DNA of 64,000 nt, taken from positions 124,001-188,000 of the forward strand of contig PUQB01000246.1 of assembly GCA_003024785.1 (NCBI GenBank). Reading direction: 5' to 3'. Source of the DNA: Selaginella tamariscina (lineage: Eukaryota > Streptophyta > Lycopodiopsida > Selaginellales > Selaginellaceae). The notes beneath the pieces are model-generated. The model had not been told where the DNA came from, made no database searches, and saw only the letters and a list, made by a program, of their open reading frames with translations. A program made the position numbers and the translations under genes. Shown here in pieces: positions 23,301-60,177 of the stretch (positions within the stretch are counted from its first letter, which is position 1; every line of letters starts with the position of its first letter).

Positions 23301-25640
23301 ATATTAAAAATACTAATTAAATAATTAAAATTGTTAATTATTAAGAAAATGGGACTATACACATTCCCATTTTAGTTACAACTATAATACTATGATTCTG
23401 TGATAGTCACAATATGTAAAGACTTTTGTCTTTCTTGGAGACAAAGAAAATTGGGGTACCGCTAGTGAACGCGAGTGGTAAATAAAATCAATAGAACATA
23501 TGCCTGTAGTGTCTCCAATTATGTAAATGAAAGGCCATAGATTGGTCCATTTGGAGGTTGTATTAGATTAATGGGGTAATTGTATGGGTGGTGATGATAG
23601 TTTTGTTACCTTCTTCTAGTCAAACACATTTGCAAAGACTTGGTACTTGTTGGGAAGCACCATTGGAACCTTCTCTATAGACATGTTGAATGGATGAAGA
23701 GTGACAACAAACGCAAAGTGGGATCATGTCGACTAGCATCACAAAACTACGTATGAAATGCTAATCATTGATTATAAAAGCAGAGGAAGAAATGCATTAA
23801 TGATACCTTAGAGTTGTGCAAATTGTATGTCTTCCAATCAATAACAAGGCTTGTCAGTTGCAACCACGAAAGTTCAAGGATGATTGGGCATTCAAAGATG
23901 AAATTAGGTTGAAGAAGATGACATAATAAAATATATACTAGATTTGATCGATCACAACTTGAGTCAAGCAGGTTCACAAGTTGGCTTCAAGACAATACCA
24001 TGGAAAACATCAAACTCCCTATTATTGAAATTTGCATTTGTTACACTACTCCATGAGTCCCTTGCAAGAGATTGTAGACCATGAAGATTTGACTTGAACA
24101 TTTATGTAAATGTTTAATAGTCATATATGATGGAATGGAACTTAAGTGTTCAAGAGTTGAAACAACTTTATTTACTAGTCGAACGATTCCTACTGATTGG
24201 TTCTCGTTATTTCCCGATTATACAACTTAATCACAACATGGGCTTGATGACTAGGAGTATGATTTGGATGTGGAACAATGCTTTAAATTGTGGTTTAGAT
24301 CTCCATAATATTAATATAGATTGTTGTCGATTTGGTGTTGTCTCTCAACAATTGAAAGTCATTGATAACAACAATTGTTTAGCTCCATCAGTTCATGTGC
24401 ATTCCTTCTCCTTCGTGGGTAATGGCAAGAATAATGTTGTGGAGAAACTCCATGCCTTTTGGAGATGATTGGCCGATGTGAGAGAGGTGGGATCTGGTTG
24501 GCACAATAACAAATCTTTAATATCATTTTGCAAACCAGTTCCCGTAAGGCTGCATCATCCCAAGGAATATCAACAACAATCATTTGGAACTTAGTTGCAT
24601 ATGCCATTGCTAACCTTGATCCTTTGTGAAGCTGTTGGACTTTGTTGATAGTGGTGCATTCTTGATTTGTGTCATTAAACATATTTATAAAATGCTACTT
24701 AAACTTTGTAAAACTTTAAAGGATTGGGTCATGGTTTTCAAATAGTGCAACAAACCATGAAAGAGTGATTCCAGAAAGGAGGGAACCAACCAATCCCACC
24801 TTAGCAACATCAGTGGAATACTACTTTAGTTGCATAAGGACCTGCAATTTTACGAACCCATAGAATTCCAAACGAATCCTGGCTAGCATGCAATCTTTAA
24901 TTATAAAGGACTTACCATAGAGGAAGATGGTAAGTTACGAAGATGTTAAACTTCAGCCCTTAGTGCCTTATTGGCCTCCTTTGATGCCTAAAAAAACTTG
25001 CATATGATCAAGAGTCAATTGCATGTAACTTAAGCATTGTTCCAAAAGAGATGACATTTTTTTAGAGCGTTCAAACTATCACGACTTATCAATAATGATT
25101 AAAAAATAAAAGAATAAAAGTAAAATAGAAGAGAAATGTATTAAATAAAGAATTACAAAAATAATAATAATTAATTGAACAATCGAGAAGAATATTAAAT
25201 AAAGAAAATGGGGACTTGAAATACAGAATGAACTTGTTAGATTCTTCTTAATTTATGTTTATAGGCATCAAACTCTTTGCCTAAATCAAACCCTATTAAG
25301 GAGGTTGGGCTTCTTCCACTTGTTGAAACAATTATAAGGATGGTTTTCTAGAAGATTATTCTTAATCTTGTAATATACATCAACAAAGTCGATGTACTTG
25401 ACTAAAAGATGAACAACAAGTTTGTTGGAATTTGACTTAGGTGCTGGATTGATGACCACAACAAAGATCAATAAAGATCTTCATTACCTTCTTGAATGAA
25501 TTTCTTTAAGAAAATTGTGTTGATTTGGAATGATTTTGAAGTGAGGTTTAAAACTCAAAATTTAACTCCTCACACTGTAAACTAAAACACTACTTTCACT
25601 AATTGATGCTTGAGCTATGCAACTCAAACCATGACATGCG
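20389..25640 (-). mobile_element. Ty3/gypsy LTR retrotransposon fossil (minus), broken
   Basis: The left LTR (20389 to about 20750) opens TGTCACAACC and closes TTATGACA, with a C-rich complement of a polypurine tract next to it. A related right LTR begins near 25077 (TATCACGAC) and ends near 25640. A decayed primer-binding-like block (AGAGCGTTCAAAC) precedes it. Between them, on the minus strand, lie gag-like (24360-24680), protease-like (23765-23980) and reverse transcriptase (22560-23140) traces. The element is heavily broken, with well over ten breaks, and old: the LTRs are clearly diverged. The right end is approximate. Confidence 0.7.
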
Positions 25641-28359: not shown

Positions 28360-28610
28360 CAAGAACTAGGAACTTAGGAGCAAGACCATGCGCATAATAG
28401 GATCCAGGAGCAAGATAGGAACAGGATAGGATCCGGGAGCAAGACAGGAGCAGGACAGGACCCAGGAACAAGACAGGAGCAGGACAGGACCCAGGAACAA
28501 GACAGGAGCAGGACAGGATTTGGGAGTAAGACAGGAGCAGGACATGAACCAAGAGCAAGACAAGAGCATGAGGCAAAGAGCAAGACACGAACAAGACAAG
28601 AACAAGAATG
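28360..28610. repeat. AGGAGCAGGACAGGACCC-type minisatellite in the solo LTR
   Basis: Units of about 29-30 bp of ACAGGAGCAGGACAGGACCC type repeat with small changes. The array is expanded compared with the shorter LTR copies near 55.4 and 59.9 kb, and accounts for much of the length difference. Confidence 0.8.
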
Positions 28611-28754
28611 ATCGTAGAATGACTGGTGTTGATAGTAACTGATTGTACAACAATTAGGTTAGAGCTTTTATGCTCACAACTCTAAGCTAATTTGGTCATG
28701 AGTCTAATCTAGTCATGAACTAAAAATAGTGACCCTTATCCTCTATGCATATCC

Positions 28755-28860
28755 TGTAGCATATCCTATAGGCATATCCTGTAGGAATATCCTATAGGTA
28801 TATCCTGTAGGAATATCCTGTAGGTGTATCCTATAGGCATATCTTGTAACATGTATTCGG
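28755..28860. repeat. TATCCTGTAGGYA tandem array near the LTR 3' end
   Basis: About seven 13-15-bp units of ATATCCTRTAGG type. The same array occurs at about 55660-55770 and 60080-60160 in the sister LTRs, with different copy numbers. Confidence 0.8.
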
Positions 28861-43866: not shown

Positions 43867-45964
43867 CTAAAATCTGCAAAATAATGCCTTGATCCTGGTA
43901 ACAGTAAGTTGACTTGTACTCCGAGAACTTCTCCTCATTACCAACACTTCTTCAACCTTGTGGTTAACCACGTTATCCTCCTTAACCACGTCCTTGATTA
44001 GCTTAACCTCACTCTGGTTAACCTCCTTAACTACATCCTGGTTATCTAATTCTTCGCGAGGAACTCCACGTTTTCTTTTAATTCTGGATCCTGGTATGAC
44101 CACGTCATCAGTCGGAGGACTTTCAACTGCCATTTCCCGTGAACTTCCGTCAACACGCCGTCTACTAGTTGATGGACTTCTGCCGGCACGCCGTTTACTA
44201 GCTGATGAATCTCCGTCAGTACGCCTTTTACTAGCACGTCGTTTGCTAACTGACAAATTTCTGTCAGCGCTAACTGATGAACTCCGTTTACTAGCTGAAC
44301 TTCCGTCAGAATGCCGTTTGTTAGCTGCCGCTTCAGGTGAACGTCCTTTAACTTGTTGTCTTTCAACCGCTTCAGGTGAATTTCCGTTATCCTCGACTGC
44401 AGCATCTGAATCGCCGTCAACTCCCCGTCTACTACGGGTCTTAGGCCTTGTACTACCCTGCTTACTACCATGTGCATCCGTACATTTCCCCTTTTCTGTA
44501 GTAACTAAAGCTTGTTCCTCCGTACACTTAGCCGTAGCTTGCGCTTGTTTCACATTACTCTTGTCACCGTTAGCTTGGTCAGCGGTAATTCCGTTGGCCT
44601 TTGTAACTCTGTCCCTGTTACCGTTAAGTTGGACATCGTTAACGTCATTCTTCACGGTGTCTTTAGTTACTTCGGGATTTGCCGTATCTTGTTCCACTTT
44701 ATCGCCGTTAACTTGAGCAACGGCAGTTGACGGTGCTTGTACCTCGACCGGTTCTTCCGTACGTTGTTGCTTTGCTTTTCGTACCTTGTCACACGAAGCT
44801 TCACGCTTTTTCTTACAGATCGGTCGTGAATTCTTCTTTTCAGTGTCATCTGCCGCTGCAAAAGCACTCGTTATGTTGTGTGCATGCGTGCGTGCGCGTG
44901 CGTGTGTGTGTGAGAGAGAGAGACCTGTGTATGGAGCATGTTGTGAAGCTCTCAAACCTCTAGAGTCTAGCAGCATTTCTTCTTCAAACGGCTCAAAAGG
45001 CTCCGGAAATATGGCCACATGAAATGGACGCTCCGGTTCATGGTCAAAACCGGTCAAAGTGTGCTGGTCAAAGCTTGTCAGGACCTGGTCAAATCCGCTC
45101 TTAACCTCAACAGAAGTCAAATGCTGCTTATGCTGCACCTGGTCAAATCCGGTCAACTCGTGTTTAAGACGGTCAAAAGCGGTCAACTCCTGTCCATTCT
45201 CTCCTTTATGCTGGTCAAACACGGGCGTCTCGTGTCTGTTGAGTATCTGTCTGCCCTTCGATTTAAGCCGATCAAATGCGGTCAAATCCTGGCCGTTCTT
45301 TGTCGGTCTTTGCTGGTCAAACTCCTCAGGTATGCCTTTCCTGCGTCGAGCTTTGGCAAGCTCTGCACGTAATCTTAGCCGTGGAGCTGAAGTCTTTGGT
45401 ATATTCGGAGCATCTGGAGAAGCCGAGATACCTGGAATATTCGAAGGATGGGAAATATTCCAAGCATCTGGGAATCTCCAGGAAAAGCTTTCTCCTGTGT
45501 GGAAGCAGCTCTCTAAGTCAAGTACCTCCATTTCCATGTCCATGTTTAAGAAGCGTATGTCTGCTTCTATCTGCTCAGATTCCTCTCCGTTGTTTACCAT
45601 ATTAACTGTTAATAAAGCGTTAATTAATTCATTAGAGAATATACTAAAATATTTAATAAGAGGTTTATTAATTATATTATTTAAGTTAAATATGTTTTTA
45701 ACGTTTTTCAACGCTAAATTCAATCTAAAGTAAAACATACATGTATGCAAGTTTGTGTGAGTATATACATCATGAATATAATATATAGATACATAGTATG
45801 TGAGAAAAGACAAATATACTTAAACACACACAACACACACACACACACACACACACACATTTAGCTTACGTCTCTTCACGCCAAGATTGCCTTCACGCAA
45901 CCACGTACTTTGTGTGTAGGTAGCTGTTCACTGAACGGAAGGTATACTCCTCACTTGTAGCATC
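43867..45964 (-). CDS. Low-complexity basic protein, probably nuclear; possible MBD-like first exon
   Basis: A long minus-strand frame starts after an acceptor near 45608; the first Met is MVNNGEESEQ at 45600. Residues about 100-230 repeat a FDQ/FDR motif (LTAFDRLK, LTGFDQV, VLTSFDQH). A 69-bp intron (44924-44856, GTCTCTCT..TTTGCAG, SSR-filled) is seen in frame. After it come Asn-Gly-Asp-Lys repeats and then Ser/Arg/Lys repeats (SASKRRAGRSPSTSRRR), ending KALFCRF at 43867. Upstream, an exon-like block at 45964-45870 reads DATSEEYTFRSVNSYLHTKY and, in another frame, REGNLGVKRR, like the FRS..YL part of a plant methyl-CpG-binding domain. The link is tentative. Many basic clusters suggest nuclear location. 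No catalytic domain seen; the 5' end is missing. Confidence 0.55.
44856..44924 (-). other. 69-bp microsatellite intron
   Basis: On the gene strand it opens GTCTCTCTCTCTCACACACA and closes CTTTTGCAG. Removing it joins ACA-G to CG-GCA in phase (HAPYT-A-ADDTEKK). It has no stop in frame, so retention would insert 23 residues of Ser-Leu-His-Thr-Ala-Arg type. Confidence 0.75.
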
Positions 45965-46539: not shown

Positions 46540-47260
46540 TTATTATTATATATACATTATAAATAAACATATACATTTTAAATAACGTCCAATTTCAAAT
46601 CGATGCAAGAGAATATGCACACGTGAGTGTAGAAACTCACAATTAAGTGTAATCTATTATTTATGCTAATATGATTTTAATAAATATGATATATGATATC
46701 TTGAAAACTATAATTTAGTTGATTTAAGTAGTTAAAATGATATGCAATGGAATTATATTAACTTAGCTTTTAATTAGTTTAGGCTATTTACAAAGTGATG
46801 TATATACTGTTATTATTTTTTCTAAATTCAATATTTTTTTTAATAAAGTGGTAAGTTGTTTTAGAAGACAGTATTCTTAGAGAATTTACAAAACTAAGAA
46901 TAAAAATAATAATAATAATAATAGTCATATATAACAATATGAATATATACTTATAGAAATTATATATATATATATATATATATCATATCTGACATGAGAA
47001 CAGTACAAACATGTCATATTTGTGTAAATACTATTTTGTAATATACATATGTATAATATGTCACTTAAGAATTACAATATTCTGATATAACTTATAAGTA
47101 TCAAAATTTAAATACTAGGTTTCTAAACTGCGCCTTGTTATCAATATTAATGTAAATTAACTTAAGGATATATTAGCTTTCAAATATATTTTTTATCAGT
47201 TATAAATTTCGGGTCTCATTAACTATATATTATATATTATAAACGGTAAGTTAAAGGTCA
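46540..47260. other. AT-rich spacer before the LINE
   Basis: AT-rich, with an (AAT)n run at 46905-46923 and an (AT)n run at 46965-46983. No gene seen. Confidence 0.55.
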
Positions 47261-47261
47261 A

Positions 47262-47446
47262 ATTGGTCAACATGGCTGCTGACGTGGCTGCTGGTGTGGC
47301 TGCTGACGTAGTGAGATGGTGGAACATGGTATAAGGTGTACATAGTATTCTTTAGTTAGCTAGCAAAGTAGTACAAACGGCAGTATAGTAGGGAAAAACT
47401 TGGAATTGTTGGTTGTAATTTTGCCCCATGAATAAACTTCTAACAC
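47262..47446 (+). mobile_element. 3' tail of an older LINE copy, cut short
   Basis: GACGTGG-type repeats (47280-47310), then CTAGCAAAGTAGTA, GTAGGGAAAA, TTTTGCCCCATGAATAAAC, in the same order as the end of the LINE to the right (50572-50870). It ends at an AATAAA (47431) a few bases before a fragment of tRNA-Ser. Only about 185 bp remain. Confidence 0.7.
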
Positions 47447-47464
47447 TTCAACATGTCCGAGTGG
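47447..47464 (+). repeat. 18-bp tRNA-Ser start fragment (left target duplication)
   Basis: TTCAACATGTCCGAGTGG matches the first 18 bases of the tRNA-Ser at 50871 with one change (C for T at position 12). It stands between the old LINE tail and the new LINE, as a target-site duplication would. Confidence 0.8.
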
Positions 47465-47825
47465 ACGCCGCGCGGTTATGTGTGCATGCATGGCCTCTGC
47501 TTGCATCAAAAACAAGTATGGCGCTAGTGGGCAACCCTGTCGGACTGATCTCTGCAGTACCATGGCTGGACCAAGTTTTCCGTTTAGCAGCAAGTGGCTC
47601 TTCGCGCTCCGATACAATTTGGCCATCCATCCGATGAAACGTTGCGGTATCCCCTTGCGCCTCATCACTGCCTCTAAGAAAACCCAATCTACACGGTCGT
47701 ACGCCTTCTCTCCATCCAGCATTAGAAAGCAGAAGTCTCCGTCTAGTTCCTGCGCTCTCTCTCCAGCTAGGAGTAGTGCGCGGCGTCCACAGAGACCGGT
47801 GGGCATACCGTTACCAGATTGTCAG
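47465..47825 (-). mobile_element. LINE reverse transcriptase, 5' part, inverted
   Basis: The minus strand codes fingers and palm motifs of an L1-type reverse transcriptase: QSGNGMPTGLCGRRALLL, FLMLDGEKAYDRVDW (first catalytic Asp), RQGCPLAPYLFLMQAEAM, ending HAHITARR at the left edge. The catalytic FADD box that should come next is found on the plus strand just to the right. Confidence 0.88.
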
Positions 47826-50230
47826 GGGGTGTTAGCGGATCTGGGACCTCCCATATAGAGGGACGTGTTGGACAGTTTATTCGCAGATGACACTAGCCTT
47901 TTGCTAGCTGGGGATGCACAGAACCTGGACAGGGTTCGAAGATTGTTAGAACGCTTCAACCTAGCAGCAGGGGCGCGTACCAACTGGAATAAATCACGTG
48001 GAATCTGGATTGGTGAAGGTGAGCATCCGGACTGGGGAGAGAGTGGGGGTTTCAGTGGGTTGAGAAAGGAGCCACGACGCGGTATTTGGGTTTCCAGATT
48101 GGAGCCAGTTACTGCCCGACTCGACAAAGTGCTTTTGTACTCAATCGCGTGGCCAATCACTTGAACCAGTGGGGAAGGCGGCAGTTGTCATTTCCAGCTC
48201 GTGTCACAGTCGCTAATAGTGTGTTGTTAGGGAGTTTGTGGTTTTTTGCAGGAACATGGAGCATTAACGTGGAAACAATGAGGAAGATAGAGTCGCTGCT
48301 CCGAGTATATATTGGAAAGGAGCAGGTCACAAGGCCGATACCAGGCGAGAGTGAGGTGGGAATCTTGTACAATGCCCAAGGCTGATGGAGGATTAGGCTT
48401 GATTCCACCCAGAAGCGGCTAAAGCCTTGCTGGTGAAGCTAGTGATCCGAGGTCTGGCTCCGGCACGCAACCATGGAAAGTCATGCTCAGGGATATAATG
48501 GCGAGGGTGCGTCCGGCACGCTCCACTGGACGAACAGCAGAATGGGCACGGGATGACAGATGGATATTCGCAACATCGACACTGAAACTGCCTGTGGTGC
48601 GCGAGTCCTTTTGCGGCAAACTGCTGAGCAGTTGGGAAAAGTTGAAGACAGCTCTACGTCCAAAGATGCCGGGGTGCAAAGCGGAATATACGAGGCATCC
48701 AATCTTTCTACATGCATTGATGAGTTCAGAGGATGGCTACCCATTGGGTGATGAGAGATCACCACAGGTAATTCGAGATACGTTTCGCCGGTGGCACAGA
48801 GCAGGGTGCGTACGGTGCAACAATTGGACGAGTTGACGTCGACAGAGGAGAATCAGACACGATGGATCGGACAATGGGAAGGATCACAATGAGATCCGTG
48901 ACAGAGTCAATGCGGCAAGCTGTGAGGATGCTGCTGGTGGCACGAGACAAGTTGCGACAGTCAAGCGCATGGCAAACGCAGGAATTTGCAGATGGACATT
49001 GGATCGTACTGGGAGATCAGGTGTGGCATATATACGACAGAATCGGCGGTGAAGGGGCGAGATTCCAGGCGGGCAAGGACGGGCTGTTGCATCCCCACCG
49101 AGTGAGGATTGAACCATTGCCAGATTTAACACATGCCAAGCTGGTGCGAGTGGTGGACATGGAACGGAAACGCCTAACTGTGGATCCGAGGGTCAGGCAC
49201 GGCGACTGGAGGATATTGTACTGGTTTCGTAAGCAGGCAGTAGAGGAGCTCACGTTTGATCCGAAGGCCTGGAGCTGGAATTCGAGCGCAGGGGGGGGAC
49301 TTCTTCAGCTATGAGCCGCGCATGGGCAGGAGGCTATTCCTGGGCAGACGACCAGTATCGAAACTAGCAGATCAGCTGCACGCGGCAGGATTACCACGCG
49401 GATTGAGCAGAGATTTCGGAAGGGAGCTGTGGGCAGGCGCATGGCCGTCAAATATCAAAACCATGATGTGGCTAATGCTACAGGATAGTTTAGCAGTTCG
49501 AGGTAACGTGAGGGGACTGCCGTATCAGGGTTGTGAAGCTTGCGGTACACTGGAAACAGAACGCCATTGCTTTTGGGAATGTATATGCGCACGAGAGGTA
49601 TGGGCACATGCTTTAAGGTTGGTGCAACATCTGAGCCGAGCGGATGCTTTGATCAGCTGGGAAGTTGCGTGTTTGGGGGAGCATGCATCTCACTTAGCTA
49701 AGTCTGTCGGAGTGTGGATCGTGAAAGCTGATGGTGTGGAGCGCCCCTGCTTTAATCCCGGATTAACCATGGACATAGTGGAGGAACCACCAGGGGTTTC
49801 TTCGATACACTGGTACTTCGTGAGAGGTTGTGCACTGTGGACCATTTGGCGTTCGCGGAATGCAGGCGTATTCAAAGGAAGCAGGTGGCCGATTCAGCGA
49901 GCAGTAACATTTTTCTGGACTACGCTAGTTTCGTCCTCTCATCGTATCATGAGATATCTCGCGAAAGGGGGGACTTAAATGAACACGACTTGATGGAGCG
50001 GCTGTGGATACCATGCTTGGGGATTAAAAGGCAGAACCAAGTCAGGTGGAGGTGGAGCCCGCCTAGATGGCTGCTGGTGTCATGATTAGGAACGCCCGCA
50101 AAGTAGTAGACGCAGAAGTATCAGTGAGGTTGTCTGATGAGCTGAGCATTGAGTCAGTGACTTCGAGCCTAGAGAGAGTGCCCTTTGCGACCTGGTCTTG
50201 TAGAATGAATGAGTGACGGATGGTTCCTGT

Positions 50231-50426
50231 AGGCGGGGAATTGCTCCCTTTCATGCTCTCTGGCTCCCCAGGGGAACCGCAAAGGAGAGAAGTTTGGCTT
50301 ACTGAGAATCTCCCGTATCCTTGTGCATACTGAAGCGATCCTTCAGGCGGGGAAGCTACGCTCCCTTTCATGCTTTCCTGCTCCCCATGGGAGCATCAGG
50401 GAGAGAAGTTAAGCCTGCTCAGGACC
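50231..50426 (+). repeat. About 80-bp direct repeat in the LINE 3' UTR
   Basis: AGGCGGGGAA..GCTCCCTTTCATGCT..GGAGAGAAGTT occurs at 50231-50310 and 50345-50426. Confidence 0.8.
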
Positions 50427-50571
50427 CTTCCAGGATACGAATACAGTTTCTCTTCTTTCTAATTAAGGGCTGTACGGCAGAGTCTTGGGGCTTCCTTAAT
50501 GATGGCTTAGTTACCTGGTTCCTTGGTTAGCAAGGCGGACACTTTATGAATACCGAGTGAATACTGCTTTG

Positions 50572-50750
50572 ATGTGGAGGATGACGTGGCGAGTGACGTG
50601 GAGGATGACGTGACAGATGATGTGGAGAATGACATGGCAGATGACGTGGAGGATGACATGGCAGATGACGTGGAGAATGACATGGCAGATGACGTGTGGC
50701 TGGTGACGTGTAGGATGACGTGGCAGCCGACGTGGAGGATGACGTGGCAC
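50572..50750 (+). repeat. GATGACGTGGAG minisatellite in the LINE 3' UTR
   Basis: About twelve imperfect 12-15-bp units of GATGACGTGGAG type. A shorter GCTGACGTGGCT version lies at the matching place in the older copy (47277-47312). Confidence 0.85.
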
Positions 50751-50870
50751 TTTGTATATACAATTTTTGCTAAAGTAGTAGAGATAGGTAGGAGGCTAGG
50801 ACACAAACGTAGAAGGAAAACCAGGAAGAGTGTGCTTGTATATGCTCCATGAATAAACACATAAACTTCC

Positions 50871-50951
50871 TTCAACATGTCTGAGTGGTTAAGGAGATAG
50901 ACTTGAAATCTATTGGGCTTGCCCGCGCAGGTTCAAACCCTGCTGTTGACG
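50871..50951 (+). tRNA. tRNA-Ser (anticodon UGA), possibly defective
   Basis: Class II cloverleaf. The acceptor strand TTCAACA pairs with TGTTGAC except for the first pair (T opposite C; eukaryotic tRNA-Ser normally starts with G). The D-arm region has GAGTGGTTAAGG. The anticodon arm is ATAGA-CTTGAAA-TCTAT with TGA. The long variable arm is GGGC-TT-GCCC. The T-arm is GCAGG-TTCAAAC-CCTGC. Discriminator base G. No run of four Ts follows within the next 50 bases, so termination is uncertain. The LINE 3' end abuts its first base. Confidence 0.85.
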
Positions 50952-51790
50952 TATATATGTAACGTTTATAGGAAATAAATAACATCTTGAGATATATATT
51001 ATTGAATCTTTGCAAATGACAGTATTGATTGCATATATTAAATCAATCTGTACCTTAAACATTTATTTAAAGAAAATAAATGTAAATATATAAGAAGTAT
51101 GTTCAAACCCGAACTGATTAGTTTTACATATAAGAGTTTCTGTTTTATATAAAATATTTTATTAATTAATAAATTTTTAACTTAATTATTATTTTTTAAC
51201 TTTGTGAGTTTATTTGTAATCTGATCCTCAACGTAGTTGTCTTATTAAATTCCTATGTTTAGGTTTAATTATTTAATAATGCTTAATTTAATTATTATCT
51301 TTAACTTGGTAAATTTATTATTTAAATTTAATCTTTAATTATTCTTAATCTATTAAATTTAAGCTAAATCCTGGGTTTTAAGTATTTAAGAACCCTTTAA
51401 CATAATGTTATCTTTAACCTGGTGGGCTTAACTTAGTAACATTGTGAGTTTGTTAAATCCTTAACCTAGTTGTTATTATTAACTATTTATAACCTAGTTA
51501 TTATTCTTAACTTATTAAGTTTATCCTTAATTGAATTGTTATTTTTAACATTATGAATTTATTCTTAACTCAATTGTTAAATATATAATCAACCCATGAA
51601 TAGTCTAACAACTCCAATATTATTAAATAGATTTAAAATTTAAGATGATCATTAGATGTAATCACTCATGCCATATATGAATTTAATAACCTTGATAGTG
51701 CCATGTGGGTTTAGCATTTATGATAATATTACTTTAATAGTGCTACATGGATTTAATATTTAGCACAGCTATTAAATAAAATTTAAGATA
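50952..51790. other. AT-rich spacer
   Basis: Repeated words of the AACCTAGTTRTTATT and TTATTTTTAACTT kind suggest an old degenerate tandem repeat at 51170-51560. No gene seen. Confidence 0.5.
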
Positions 51791-51806: not shown

Positions 51807-51958
51807 TTAAAATGGTTGTTAATGTGTTTATTCAAATAAATAAACAGACACGTAGAATAAACTTATTATATAATATATATATCTTATATAATAAGTTTAT
51901 TCTACATGTCTATGTATGTGTATTTATCATTAACACCACATTAACAACCATCTTAAAT
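51807..51958. repeat. Foldback (hairpin) element
   Basis: Core arms of 27 bp (51847-51873 and 51884-51910; GACACGTAGAATAAACTTAT and its complement, with one mismatch) around a 10-bp AT loop. Outer arms AAAATGGTTGTTAATGTG (51809-51826) and CACATTAACAACCATCTT (51937-51954) also pair. A MITE or foldback element is likely; there is no coding capacity. Confidence 0.8.
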
Positions 51959-55371: not shown

Positions 55372-58300
55372 TGTCAAGCCACGATCCAAGAGCATTGTCT
55401 TAAAGTAAGGAGGCTTGACTCAAGAGCAAGACAAGAATTAGAACAAGACAAGAACAAGAGGCTAAGAGCAAGACAAAAAAAAGACAAAAACAAGAAGCAA
55501 GGAGCAAGACGAATAAGACAAGAATGATCGTAGAATAACTAGTGTTAATAGTAACTGATTGTATAACAATTAAGTCAGAGCTTTTATGCTCACAACTCCA
55601 AGAGCTAATTTGGTCATGAGCCTAATCTAGTCATGAGCTAAAAATGGTGACCCTTATCCTATAAGTATATCCTGTAAGCATATCTTATAAGCATATCCTG
55701 TAGGTATATCCTGTAAGCATTTCCTGTAGGTATATCCTATAGGCATATCATGTATCATGTATCCTGTATCAAGTCATGATAGCACCTCCTCCTTAAGGAC
55801 GAGTTCCACGAGTCCTAGACCTGGTTTAGTAGGATAACATTGATGAAAAGAAGCAACCTTAGAAGAAGCATGGAGTAAATTGGATGCAGGTTCCCAAGTG
55901 CGATTAGTAGGCAAATAACCTTTCCAATCCACCAAGTATGTAGTTGGCGGCGATGAATACGAGAATCAAGGATGGCAACTTCGTACTCAGGTTCGTTGTC
56001 AATGACATAGGAGGGAGGAGGAGAAGCACGACCAGAAGAGAAGAAGTATGATACGGTTTTAATAAAGATGTGTGAAACACAGATAAAGATTCACAGTAGA
56101 TGGTAGCTAATCGAAAGCTACAGGATTGACCTTAGCTACAATTTTGTAAGGGTCCAGTGTTGAAAATCCAACTTAGAAGAAGGCATGTTGGTGTGGATAT
56201 GTTGACGAAAAAGCCACACGAGATCACCAATCTTGTACACAGGTGCTGGCTGACGATGAGCATCAGCATGACGCTTATACCGTTCCTGTGCCTGTTAAAG
56301 ATGAACTTGGAAGATCATCTTCTACCTGACAAAGATGCTAAAGACGATCCTGTACTGCAGGAGCGGAAGAAGGAGAAGCATAAGGAGCAAAATCAAAAAC
56401 GTGGATGGTAGCTTGTAAAAGCAAAGAAAGGTGTCTGGCCTAGATGTGTGAACGGAGTTGTTGTAAGCAAACTCCGCTATAAAAAGAAGGTCCAACTAAT
56501 TGTCCTGTTGGTAACTGATGAGACAGTGAAGATACTGCTCCAAGGTCTGAATCGTGCGTTTTGACTGCCTACAGGATGGAGTAACTTGTCTTCTCCAACT
56601 TGTGATAACATAAAACCTATTGTAAAATCTGAAGTATTTGCTTCAATGAAGAAAGGACGAGAAGGATCAAGATGTGTTAAAATCGAAGTTGTCGTGAGCC
56701 TTTCACTCTCGTAAGTTCCTTTTGGCGAAGATTAATTATGAGATTCATGACAAGGAATTCAATGCCATTATGGATTCATTTGAGGAATGGCGGCACATTT
56801 GTTTTCTGCTCATTGGAGATCCATTTTTATGGATTTCCTCACAGATCTTCCTCCTTCTCGTGGATTTGATGCAGTTCTTGTGGTGGTTGACCGTTTCACT
56901 AAATAGGCTTATTTCCTACTATATAACAAGATGGCTACAAGCCAGACAACTGCTGAGTTTAGTGATCCGCAAAGTGTTCCAACATCATGGTCTTCCTGAC
57001 AGCATTGTTTCTGATTGGGTCCAACAATTCATGTCCAGATTTTGGCAAGAGCTTCTCCGGAGTCTATAAGTTAAAGCGGATCTTTCTTCAGAATATCATC
57101 CACAAACCGATGAAGGCATCCTTGAGTGTTGTGAATGCATGTTTCACCTTGTCAGATCAAGAGAAATCCCCTGTGCGCTTGGTGAGTTCTATGAATGGAA
57201 GTACACACTTGGAAAAGTCCTGTATGAACCGCATGTAGAAGTTTGCAAAAGCCAAGGAAACATTGTACGTCTCGTATAAACTTGGGCCTCTCCCACTTCA
57301 CTATAGTCTTCACCTTGTACATGTCCATGGAAAACGCCTGATGTAGCCCAAGAACTCCACAATATCCCTGTCAAGAAAATACTTTTTCAACTTCGCATAC
57401 AGGCCATGCTCATGAAGCTTCTATAGAACTAGTCATACATGCTTGTCATGTGTCGCCTGATCCTTGGAGAAAATCAAAATGTCATCGAGGTAGATCACCA
57501 CAAACTGGTCCAAGAAGTCATGAAAGATGTCGTTCACCATGTGTTGAAACACGCTGAAGCATTGTGTAAGTCCGAAAGGCATCACCATGTACTTGAAATG
57601 TCCATACCTTGTACAAAAGGCAATCTTCCACTCATCACTTAGACAAATCCGTACAAGATTGTAGGCCCTTCATAAGTCAATCTTCGTGAACACCTTTGCT
57701 CCTTGTAGCCAATCGAGAAGTTCCGGGATTAATGGTAATGGGTATCGGTTTCAGATGGTGACTTGATTCAAACCCTATAGTCTATAACCAAACGCAAACT
57801 CCCATCTTTCTTCTTGGTAAAAAAGATAAGTGCTCCTGCAAGGACTTTGAGTGACAAATGAAGCCGAATGCCAAGTTGTCCTCGATGTACTTGCGAAGAA
57901 CCTGCAATTCTGTAGGTGATAGTGTATAAATCGATCCGAACGGTGGAGTTTTTTTTTCCACAAGATCGACCAAAAGATGAAAAGGAACATGATCAGTGGC
58001 AAGTTCATGCATAGTAGTGATAAGAACTCGAGAGGAGAAGGAGGGAGTTGTGACTAAAAAGAGGAAGGATCCTGGGGGTGGAACAGAAGCAAAGTAATGA
58101 ATAGAGCAGATTGGGGAAAACCTGTGCGAATGTTGACGAATGTACAGGATTGGAAGAATCTTATACAAAGTCTGTGAATGTACATTAGTGAGGAGAGACT
58201 GTGAATGTGCTGACGAACTAACAGGAGATGAATCCTGTCGAGGAGGAATTTTCAACACTAGGCACTCTGTAGCTTGTACTACCTTAGAAACTAAGGTCAT

Positions 58301-60177
58301 ATCCTGCACGCAGGAAGGTACATGATTAATCCTAGTTGCCAAAGAGGAAAACATGAGCGTCTTAGACCTCCAGTCGATATGAGGATTTGCAACCACGAAC
58401 CATGGCATGCCTAAAACGATGGAGTCGTTCAAGTCTTAATCAAGTTGAAGAAATCGAACAGTTGAATGCGTCATGAGTGCAAGAGAGAGGTGTGGTAGCA
58501 TAGGTAACTGCGCCAAAAGCAATTAGACGACCATCACCACCTCTATAGGAACTACACGCTTCAATTTACCACCAGAATGCCATGCTGAATTGCAAAAGTG
58601 TCATCCATGAAGCATGCATTTGCCCCAGTGTCTAACAGGGCAAACTCCTTGAGCTCTTGATTATTAAGACGAATGTGTACATGAAACTTGAGCGACGGAA
58701 TGGTGTGAGCAACACCAATGAAGCTTGCACCTACGTCCAACTTCGTGGCTCCTAGACGAAGTGGACATTAAAGTTTTCTGACTAAACTTCAGCTTCAACT
58801 TCACGCATCTTGAACTTTCTAATTTTAATAAGACATTTCGCCACCTTGTGTACTACTTCACCACAATACAAGCATAAGTTCTCACGCGACGACATTGCTT
58901 CTCAGCAATTGAAAGTGGGCCACGCTTGTATTTTTCAACCTCCATAAGAACACTTCAGAAGGTGTTGTAGTAACATGTGCTACAGCTACAGGATTAGCTT
59001 AAGAACTGATGACGGGATTTTTCCTAACGACGCTTAGAACAAACGGTTGTCGCAATGAACAGCCATTGCATGATCTCCATTAATGTTTGGGCATCCGGTA
59101 ACGTAAGTAGAAGGTCCTTCACGTCATCCTCACCCAAAATGGAAGTTCAATTTAAGTCTCGTCCCATGGAATGTTCGTGCAAAGTTGCTAAAATTGGATG
59201 CATAAACGGAACTGGTTGGGATCCTTGTGTGAGCTTCTGTAACTTCGTGCATGCGAATGGTACTTATTAGGATCTCCAAAGAAGGCTTCAAAGGTGCAGA
59301 ATCCTTCAAAGTCTTCCATCAATGGGTCATCACACTCTAGCAAAGGGGCAAACCCAAGCTTATGGAGATCCAATTAGTAAGGATGTCAAAAGGCCAACCT
59401 TTTGTGCATCAGTCGAGTAACGGCGTGGTTGCATGCGGATCAAAAGCCTGATCTGATTCAAGAAACCTTGAAAATCGGCAGTTTCCACTAAACTTCTCTA
59501 GCATGTTTGATCTTTGGTTCTGAAGAAGAGTTCAATGGAGAGGAAACAACGGATGCTTGAGAAGAGCCTGTGTAGCAGCCTTGGAGGATGCATCAGCATT
59601 GCATGTGCCGCATTGGTGGAACCTTGTAGATCTGTGACCACTTGGCGTAAAGTGGCTAGCTCATGAAGTAACATTTGATGCTCGCGTTGAAATTGCTCAA
59701 AATCTACCATGATCCGTAAAAAAAGAAGAAAGAAAGCAAGGGAGAAAAGCTAAGGAAAAAAAAAGTAACTAAAAGTCAGTTAGTTATAAAATTAGTTACT
59801 ATCAAACTGTCAAGTCACAATCCAAGAGCAAGGAGGCTTGACTCAAGAGCAGGACAAAAACAGAACAAGACAAGAACAAGAGCTAAGAACAAGACAAGAA
59901 CAGACAAGAATAAGAGGCAAGAAGCAAGACAAGAACAAGACAAGAATGATCATAGAATGGTTGGTGTTGATAGTAACTGATTGTACAACAATTAGGTCGA
60001 AGCTTTTATGATCACAACTCTAAGAGCTAATTTAGTCATGAGCCTAATCTAGTCATGAGCTAAAAATGGTGACCCTTATCATGTAGGTATATCCTATAAG
60101 CATATCTTGTAGGCATATCCTGTAGTATTGTATGCATATCCCGTATCCCGTATCCTATATCTTGTATTGAGTCGACA
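55372..60177 (-). mobile_element. Ty3/gypsy LTR retrotransposon fossil (TGTCAAG family), rearranged and broken
   Basis: LTRs at 55372-55781 (410 bp) and 59808-60177 (370 bp) open TGTCAAG and share the TATCCTRTAGG array. Both belong to the family of the solo LTR at 28275. On the minus strand are gag-like (58.9-59.7 kb), protease (LGMPWF..NPHIDW, about 58.4 kb) and reverse transcriptase (57.4-57.9 kb) parts. A block at about 56690-57090 with RNase H and integrase traces reads on the plus strand, so the inside is rearranged or composite. More than ten breaks. The LTRs differ noticeably, which means considerable age. It is nested in the 1.7-kb repeat. Confidence 0.75.

Follow-up and report, generated by a model that had tools for sequence, protein, structure and literature searches.

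A 64,000-nucleotide window of the Selaginella tamariscina genome (positions 124001-188000 of contig C556, PUQB01000246.1) contains a serine tRNA gene, tRNA-Ser(UGA), that was very probably entered twice in succession by related long interspersed nuclear elements (LINEs), members of a family directed at the 5′ ends of units of the type transcribed by RNA polymerase III (Pol III). This reading is drawn from sequence, both of the window and of the genome searched (300.7 Mb, 1391 contigs). The original prediction was of a LINE inserted precisely where a Pol III gene starts, the gene being rebuilt by the duplication, and this is borne out by the sequence, by ARAGORN and by the genome-wide junction patterns. 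The locus is made up of the following features.

47266-47274, + strand: GTCAACATG, where the tRNA-Ser gene originally began (sequence; the empty site L008 runs straight on into the tRNA)
47267-47274, + strand: left duplication of the first insertion, LINE A (sequence)
47275-47446, + strand: LINE A, a 5′-truncated LINE 3′ end of ~172 bp (GACGTGG-type repeats, CCATGAATAAAC.. end)
47448-47464, + strand: left target-site duplication of LINE B, TCAACATGTCCGAGTGG, tRNA positions 2-18 (sequence)
47465-47775, − strand: inverted 5′ segment of LINE B with reverse transcriptase (RT) motifs (blastn to the LINE L089; right end by eye; PF00078, 4.3e-9)
47776-50870, + strand: sense segment of LINE B with the remaining RT (frame broken), zf-RVT and 3′ untranslated region (UTR), ending ..AATAAACACATAAACTTCC (sequence, domains, blastn)
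49244-49975, + strand: zf-RVT piece of LINE B
50570-50747, + strand: 24-bp / 12-bp GACGTGG tandem array in the LINE B 3′ UTR
50871-50952, + strand: rebuilt tRNA-Ser(UGA) gene, base 1 T and not G (ARAGORN, start 50870; Rfam tRNA, 48.8 bits in L030)
50872-50888, + strand: right duplication of LINE B

LINE B (47465-50870, ~3.4 kb, 5′-inverted) has TCAACATGTCYGAGTGG at both sides. On the + strand of the window TCAACATGTC is found at 47448 and 50872 only, with a single − strand match at 23680, and AACATGTC[CT]GAGTGG is found within the window at 47450 and 50874 only. Therefore a 17-nt tRNA piece (47448-47464) lies to the left of LINE B and the tRNA gene lies to its right, where ARAGORN places a tRNA-Ser(TGA) at 50870-50952. 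The element terminates in ..CCATGAATAAACACATAAACTTCC at 50870 without poly(A), as predicted. The left boundary was first described as tRNA bases 1-18; a tRNA piece is indeed present, but it comprises 17 nt, positions 2-18, and the original 5′ end of the gene is at 47266-47274, where G1 of GTCAACATG pairs with the acceptor 3′ arm of the tRNA gene 3.6 kb downstream. Instead of the one LINE initially described, two insertions are present in a single tRNA gene, with the stump of LINE A, which is the earlier of the two, lying between.

A blastn comparison with the longer relative L089 aligns 47472-47770 (minus) with L089 4659-4957 and 47796-50085 (plus) with L089 from 4974 onward, and the L089 parts matched by the two segments nearly adjoin. 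In twin priming, reverse transcription is begun at both nicks and a 5′ inversion is its usual trace; by this alignment the inverted segment (~310 bp, exact ends by eye) is an inversion of the twin-priming type. An end of the segment near 47821, taken from a stop-to-stop frame, was rejected as the alignment gives ~47775. The LINE B 3′ UTR also carries a ~73-bp repeat (50225-50294 and 50339-50410, 78% alike) that is separate from the tandem array.

A paralogue on the same contig, L008 (335.7 kb), is without both LINEs. Window positions 47155-47274 correspond to L008 1383-1508 (72.6%) and 50872-50969 to L008 1501-1598 (90.8%), and the two L008 matches overlap by the 8-nt duplication alone. L008 spans both flanks without the LINEs; thus the empty site is known. 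The filled locus is itself duplicated on C1017, with 98% identity over 1100 columns of the left flank. A survey of tRNA-Ser genes gave 42 matches (141 candidates, 40 scored), and the 24 places that cover the tRNA body (L001, L002, L004, L006 and L026, with family 3′ ends, and 19 others) were inspected. Base 1 is G in all 16 empty places and T in all eight that adjoin a family 3′ end, some of the eight being duplicates of each other. Every base of the gene but the first is thus restored, and the predicted regeneration applies to the tRNA with T replacing the G seen in 16/16 empty genes. L006 displays a 308-bp insertion with a 19-nt duplication, TCAACATGTCCGAGTGGTT, and the native G remains in front. 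The flanks of L004, L006, L026 and the window are unrelated.

The relative L089 covers ~8.3 kb of a copy on C1223 whose full extent, from one 5S rRNA gene piece to another, is ~9.5 kb. It shows an apurinic/apyrimidinic-type endonuclease (APE) domain (PF03372, 1.7e-6), whose sole solved match is 2v0r (E 5.5e-4), a LINE endonuclease chimera. It also has an RT (PF00078, 3.7e-28) and zf-RVT (PF13966). Of the solved proteins, human LINE-1 ORF2 is the closest to the RT (3.6e-29), and the best R2-like protein gives 1.9e-11. A piece of open reading frame 1 (ORF1) has a CCHC-like motif by eye and no Pfam match, and no RNase H match was found in the L089 pieces tested. The L089 frames are broken; RT frames reach 702 aa in relatives of ~60% identity. 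LINE coding sequence is found within 1.5 kb upstream of 18/28 LINE B-type and 12/26 LINE A-type ends. Marks of target-primed insertion are present, namely 5′ truncations, a 5′ inversion and target duplications, and copies end in ..AAAC.TTCC with no 3′ poly(A) tail. By its domains (APE, RT, zf-RVT), the family is an L1-like LINE without poly(A).

The pattern CCATGAATAAACN{7,9}TTCC detects 325 family 3′ ends in the genome, against 2 for the same pattern backwards, which served as control. Of these ends, 110 are joined to a 5S rRNA gene (control 0). Separate genome patterns show 27 ends joined to a tRNA-like dispersed repeat (control 0) and 7 strict junctions with tRNA-Ser (control 0); these two patterns have looser gaps and do not require TTCC, and so are not strict subsets of the 325. 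The absence of control matches in each case excludes chance for the 5S, repeat and tRNA-Ser junctions. The junctions are at gene starts and in gene orientation, and the target duplications are mostly 13-19 nt, e.g., TCATACGGACCAGTTGG at the repeat (L060) and CATATCAACACGATTGC at 5S (L046). The notion of the family as a tRNA-Ser specialist was rejected, 5S being the dominant target.

Other Pol III-type genes are found at the junctions. A tRNA-Gly(GCC) begins exactly at the junction in L062 and L063 (ARAGORN, Rfam), apparently two copies of one locus, and in L055 a tRNA-Ile (Rfam 30.4 bits) has the junction ~18 bp upstream, as does L058 by eye. Rfam 5S matches at the junction begin at model position 9-10 in L042, L033, L054 and L087, and from position 1 in L039, L084, L100, L113, L114 and L125, where the model extends into the last bases of the element. 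Rfam microRNA, snoRNA, sRNA and other matches below the gathering score were ignored, save one weak tRNA match (L068). The tRNA-like repeat, a frequent target (copies in L034, L051, L060, L066, L067, L069 and L085), has a conserved 5′ portion of at least ~200 bp and a tRNA-like region that contains A and B boxes; it may be a short interspersed nuclear element (SINE) or an element resembling a terminal-repeat retrotransposon in miniature (TRIM). Another dispersed sequence, with no Pol III feature, has the junction at almost the same place in three copies (L102, L120, L083).

In samples ranked by similarity, 22 of the 28 classified LINE B-type ends (30 copies) match a target motif by rule, one of which, L049, is barely over threshold and possibly a chance match. 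With the indel variants L036, L037 and L048 and the two tRNA-Ile cases added, targets are found at 27/30. For the LINE A ends (30 copies), the rule gives 15/29 matches, to which Rfam or inspection by hand adds four (L059, L066, L084, L088).

The native 5S gene reads ..AAATCTCATGTCGGGTCATATCAACACGATTGCACCGG (Rfam 99.5 bits); the form GATCATATC was rejected, with 0 matches, and the native form is GTCGGGTCATATC. An exact TCGGGTCATATCAACACGATTG is present at 20 places, two of which (L177, L183) lie 5′-terminally in a LINE that occupies tRNA-Ser. The remaining 18 exact native 5S starts comprise 5 that are empty and 13 that are interrupted, and all 13 depart from 5S 0-3 nt past the motif, which is the right end of the duplication. 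The nature of most of these inserts is seen in L186 (C438:23440-26020), where a 2.5-kb insert exactly separates a native 5S start (..GTCGGGTCATATCAACACGATTGC) from the remainder of that same 5S (TTCATATCAACACGATTGCACCGG..). Its single sense frame of at least 90 aa has 95 aa, and it matches the LINE L089 over the 3′ 54 bp only (92.6%), the match extending into the shared 5S piece. This non-coding companion is probably a non-autonomous element that shares the family 3′ tail and targets and is moved by the enzymes of the LINE. Ten of the 13 interrupted starts run into the companion, two of them into its interior, 5′-truncated (L170, L184). L176, rearranged in front, runs into the 5′ end of an L089-type LINE, L169 and L178 are assigned to neither, and L173 is partly masked. 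The recurrent CCTAGCCGCCTTGGCG.. start in 5S genes was considered as the LINE 5′ end and rejected, as it has no L089 match and L186 places it in the companion. The companion is also observed at L171-L175, L179, L181, L182, L044 and L053, and by tail (by eye) it occupies the tRNA-Ser genes L004, L006, L156, L160 and L162; the two insertions in the window are LINEs.

Four 3′-end types are joined to 5S. From a 5S start at 75 kb on C1223, a series of at least 18 junctions, all in the same strand, extends as far as 5.8 kb, and this array is apparently one 5S gene that was repeatedly inserted into. Serial one-strand arrays, in which each 3′ end is followed by the same 5S piece, are seen at C1223:5808-75006 (at least 18) and C867:105760-151388 (at least 12); arrays on C634, C828 and C272 are near-duplicates. 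Extra partial copies of the 5S duplication (ACGATTGC, ATCAACACGATTGC) are present at the 5′ junctions of L038, L041, L045, L057, L092, L093, L104 and L185, and resemble slippage during second-strand priming. In L084 the distance between a 5S-like gene and the 18S start is ~1.25 kb, intact 5S genes are spaced 12.2-12.8 kb apart on C438 and C472, and the 5S looks linked to the 35S rDNA unit.

Insertion sites outside the main motifs offer a view of the nick. At 47 such non-redundant sites, a few of them tRNA-like, target bases 1-4 are C in 81%, A in 81%, A/T in 83% and A in 68%. Among the 38 sites least like Pol III genes, 12 start with CA[A/T]A, against ~1.3% expected from composition. The endonuclease therefore prefers CA[A/T]A even off target, and Pol III genes would be struck at a CA[A/T]A-like site near their start. 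A B-box word is present 50-52 nt from the 3′ end of the element in both tRNA-Gly copies and in 12/13 of the repeat copies where it was found (L118: 41), and 59-60 nt from it in five tRNA-Ser copies; B-box relics are at a similar distance in L130 (50), L135 (51) and L142 (51). That the distance is nearly constant while the sequences differ favours tethering where the Pol III unit starts, and the first bases and rough C.A(G)T(T)GG end shared by the main targets favour some sequence recognition. Most likely, guidance would combine tethering to the Pol III initiation region with local sequence choice.

Several observations weigh against a family aimed at Pol III-type units. A positional sample was drawn as 60 of 100 listed places of a 233-match pattern, with clustered contigs thinned and some earlier-read places skipped. 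By rule it holds 14 5S, 10 repeat and 36 other ends, and only when a B box 40-75 nt downstream is counted do 30/60 become Pol III-type; the other 30 abut unrelated DNA. B-box words are also found elsewhere (L050 at 28, L134 at 32, L139 at 33 and 68, L118 at 41, L078 at 71), and the A-box-like motif at the far end of the duplication shows no enrichment at the 38 off-target sites; an A-box-like word as guide for all insertions was rejected for this reason. Many of the 110 5S junctions are in the near-identical contigs C634, C828 and C272 and many are from the companion, and therefore independent LINE events are fewer. In L145, the sole reverse-orientation case, a tRNA-Arg gene is on the strand opposite the element, 17 nt from its 3′ end. 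Lastly, the duplication of LINE A is just 8 nt. The examination of 3′ ends genome-wide thus has two sides, as 5S, the repeat and tRNA-Ser, -Gly and -Ile starts do follow them while half of the 60-copy sample is without a recognised Pol III target, an outcome that the original prediction had counted as refuting it; targeting is therefore a strong preference and not an absolute rule. When identical junctions are collapsed, 54 of the 60 remain, with 11 5S, 8 repeat and 6 with a B box. Among the 36 "other" ends a sense B box is found in 7, one of which (L134) is at an odd distance, compared with 42/1278 control segments of the window (binomial p 1.5e-4); antisense B boxes are found in 2/60. By tail, the 60 comprise 26 companion (11 at 5S, 2 repeat, 13 other), 11 LINE A type, 5 of a fourth type, and 18 unclassed.

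DNA sequence alone could also guide the element, the endonuclease recognising a TCATAY..AC.AGTTGG-like stretch common to 5S, tRNA-Ser, tRNA-Gly and the repeat, with Pol III factors uninvolved. The targets do share CA at the junction and, by eye, an approximate C.A(G)T(T)GG/GC where the duplication ends, the preference for C/A/A-or-T/A persists at the 47 sites outside the main motifs, and Dada DNA transposons are described as choosing tRNA and 5S genes by sequence (PMC8869645). Yet the far-end motif lacks enrichment off target, tRNA-Ile is targeted ~18 bp upstream at a differing sequence (L055), and the B-box distance is near constant while the target sequences differ. Guidance by sequence alone is thus possible but rather unlikely. 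Near-random insertion, with survivors only in the 5S and tRNA-like multigene families, would account for the half of the sampled copies that lie elsewhere. However, any of the four target motifs is matched by 24/60 sampled ends as opposed to 26/18252 random window offsets, and survival does not explain the near single-base precision or the single orientation, so that this account is very improbable. That the tRNA or 5S piece is carried by the element, or that the copies derive from a single insertion by segmental duplication, is refuted in general and has hardly any likelihood left, although it is true for part of the copies (the C1017 duplicate of the window locus, L029/L031 as probably one event, the similar C634/C828/C272 arrays, and the one LINE with 5S sequence at its 5′ end, L177/L183): the same 3′ end is followed by differing targets, most copies abutting sequences other than the tRNA-Ser that an element-borne tRNA would have always supplied, occupied tRNA-Ser genes have unrelated flanks, four 3′-end types are joined to 5S, the duplications correspond to the local target, and there are empty sites.

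For targeting of Pol III-type starts the following mechanism may be proposed. The APE-type endonuclease would nick the template strand close to the gene start, beside a CA[A/T]A-like motif, and the freed 3′ end would serve as primer for reverse transcription, which would begin at the AAAC.TTCC end of the RNA. A nick in the second strand would be made ~17 nt downstream, in tRNA-type genes typically past the A-box core. As it is the target that becomes duplicated, the downstream gene is rebuilt almost intact and can be targeted again, and this explains the double insertion in the window and the serial 5S arrays. The 2.5-kb non-coding element, with the shared 3′ tail, would probably be mobilised by the same enzymes.

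More tentatively, the family may be a parasite of plant 5S genes much as R2 is of 28S, with serial insertion, a LINE RNA that has a 5S leader, and tRNA-Ser, tRNA-Gly and the tRNA-like repeats as secondary targets. LINEs in 5S would be transcribed from the 5S start, so that their RNA would carry the first ~24 5S bases; this leader could pair with the next 5S gene and complete the insertion. The rebuilt target would allow serial insertion by the LINE and its companion, and the secondary targets would be reached via the common Pol III start complex. L177 (C604:604853-604994) and L183 (C1337:67693-67834), probably one duplicated event, support such a possibility, as each is a LINE in tRNA-Ser with the ~24 initial bases of 5S, starting at +1/+2, at its 5′ end. 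In L090 the 5S sequence includes ~9 further upstream bases, which counts against an exact +1 start, and the proposal that LINE RNAs always start at 5S +1 was rejected on this ground. On balance this extension is doubtful.

The window has other features. A frame at 1.9-3.1 kb matches pentatricopeptide repeats (PF13041, 2.2e-38), as fits a land-plant host, and an open frame at 43867-45819 on the − strand (650 aa) has short repeats and no Pfam match. An AT-rich palindrome downstream of the tRNA (51842-51915), with a sub-threshold hairpin match in L030, is probably a small inverted-repeat element. Arrays of AGAACAAGACA and TATCCTGTAGGCA mark paired stretches at 55421-60125 and at 28376-28848; the former pair are perhaps the two long terminal repeats of a retrotransposon, and the latter a related solo copy. 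The frame between the paired array stretches at 55421-60125 has no Pfam match.

Among LINEs, the dictyostelid TRE5, TRE3, NLTR-A and NLTR-B are described at tRNA genes and are placed in clade L1 in the table of a review (PMC5911963, PMC5006619). In these accounts TRE5 inserts ~40-54 bp upstream of tRNA genes and also at 5S genes, TRE3 40-150 bp downstream and NLTR-A 2-6 bp upstream, TRE5-A and TRE3-A have an oligo(A) tail, and NLTR-A has an RNase H domain (PMC5911963, PMC5006619). The Selaginella LINE likewise inserts at Pol III genes. Unlike TRE5 and TRE3 with their fixed distances, its junctions are at the first bases of tRNA-Ser, tRNA-Gly and 5S, or ~18 bp upstream for tRNA-Ile, and unlike the dictyostelid LINEs it duplicates the gene start, lacks an A tail, has a plant host and has 5S as main target. 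Zebrafish has a 5S-specific LINE, Mutsu. As listed in PMC4640811, NeSL-1_TV is found at tRNA-Pro, LIN15_SM at tRNA-Arg and LIN25_SM at tRNA-Glu, and most target-specific families belong to the early-branched, Tx1 and R1 groups, the Tx1 and R1 clades having APE. As target-specific LINEs do, the Selaginella family inserts at one site of multicopy small RNA genes. The NeSL/LIN tRNA families belong to the restriction-like endonuclease group and are each listed with a single gene type, whereas the Selaginella family uses 5S, several tRNAs and a tRNA-like repeat, and its LINE, unlike the R2/NeSL type, has APE and not a restriction-like endonuclease. It is like plant L1-type LINEs in its ORF1 piece with the CCHC-like motif and in APE, RT and zf-RVT, and unlike them in having no poly(A) tail. 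Ty3 of yeast similarly uses the Pol III gene start (PMC5911963) and Dada of fish the tRNA A-box region and 5S (PMC8869645), but these employ an integrase and a transposase, respectively, without reverse transcription at a nick.

The non-LTR elements tabled in the 2018 review of Pol III-targeting retrotransposons are all dictyostelid, and plants go unmentioned in its accessible text (PMC5911963). No plant LINE aimed at tRNA or 5S genes appears in the titles and the starts of abstracts of the papers found, in a literature coverage without most subscription journals and Repbase reports. Targeting of Pol III starts is known for LINEs of social amoebae and a few other organisms and apparently not of plants; priority is not claimable. 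If true, a plant LINE with 5S as main target would probably represent another independent origin of Pol III targeting, and a plant host may lend itself to insertion maps, mutants and Pol III biochemistry. The off-target copies reveal the bare nick preference; therefore sequence choice and tethering are separable, and the 3′ tail shared by LINE and companion makes an RNA signal testable. A target rebuilt with each insertion shows how elements can accumulate in an essential gene family, in which 13/18 exact 5S starts are interrupted.

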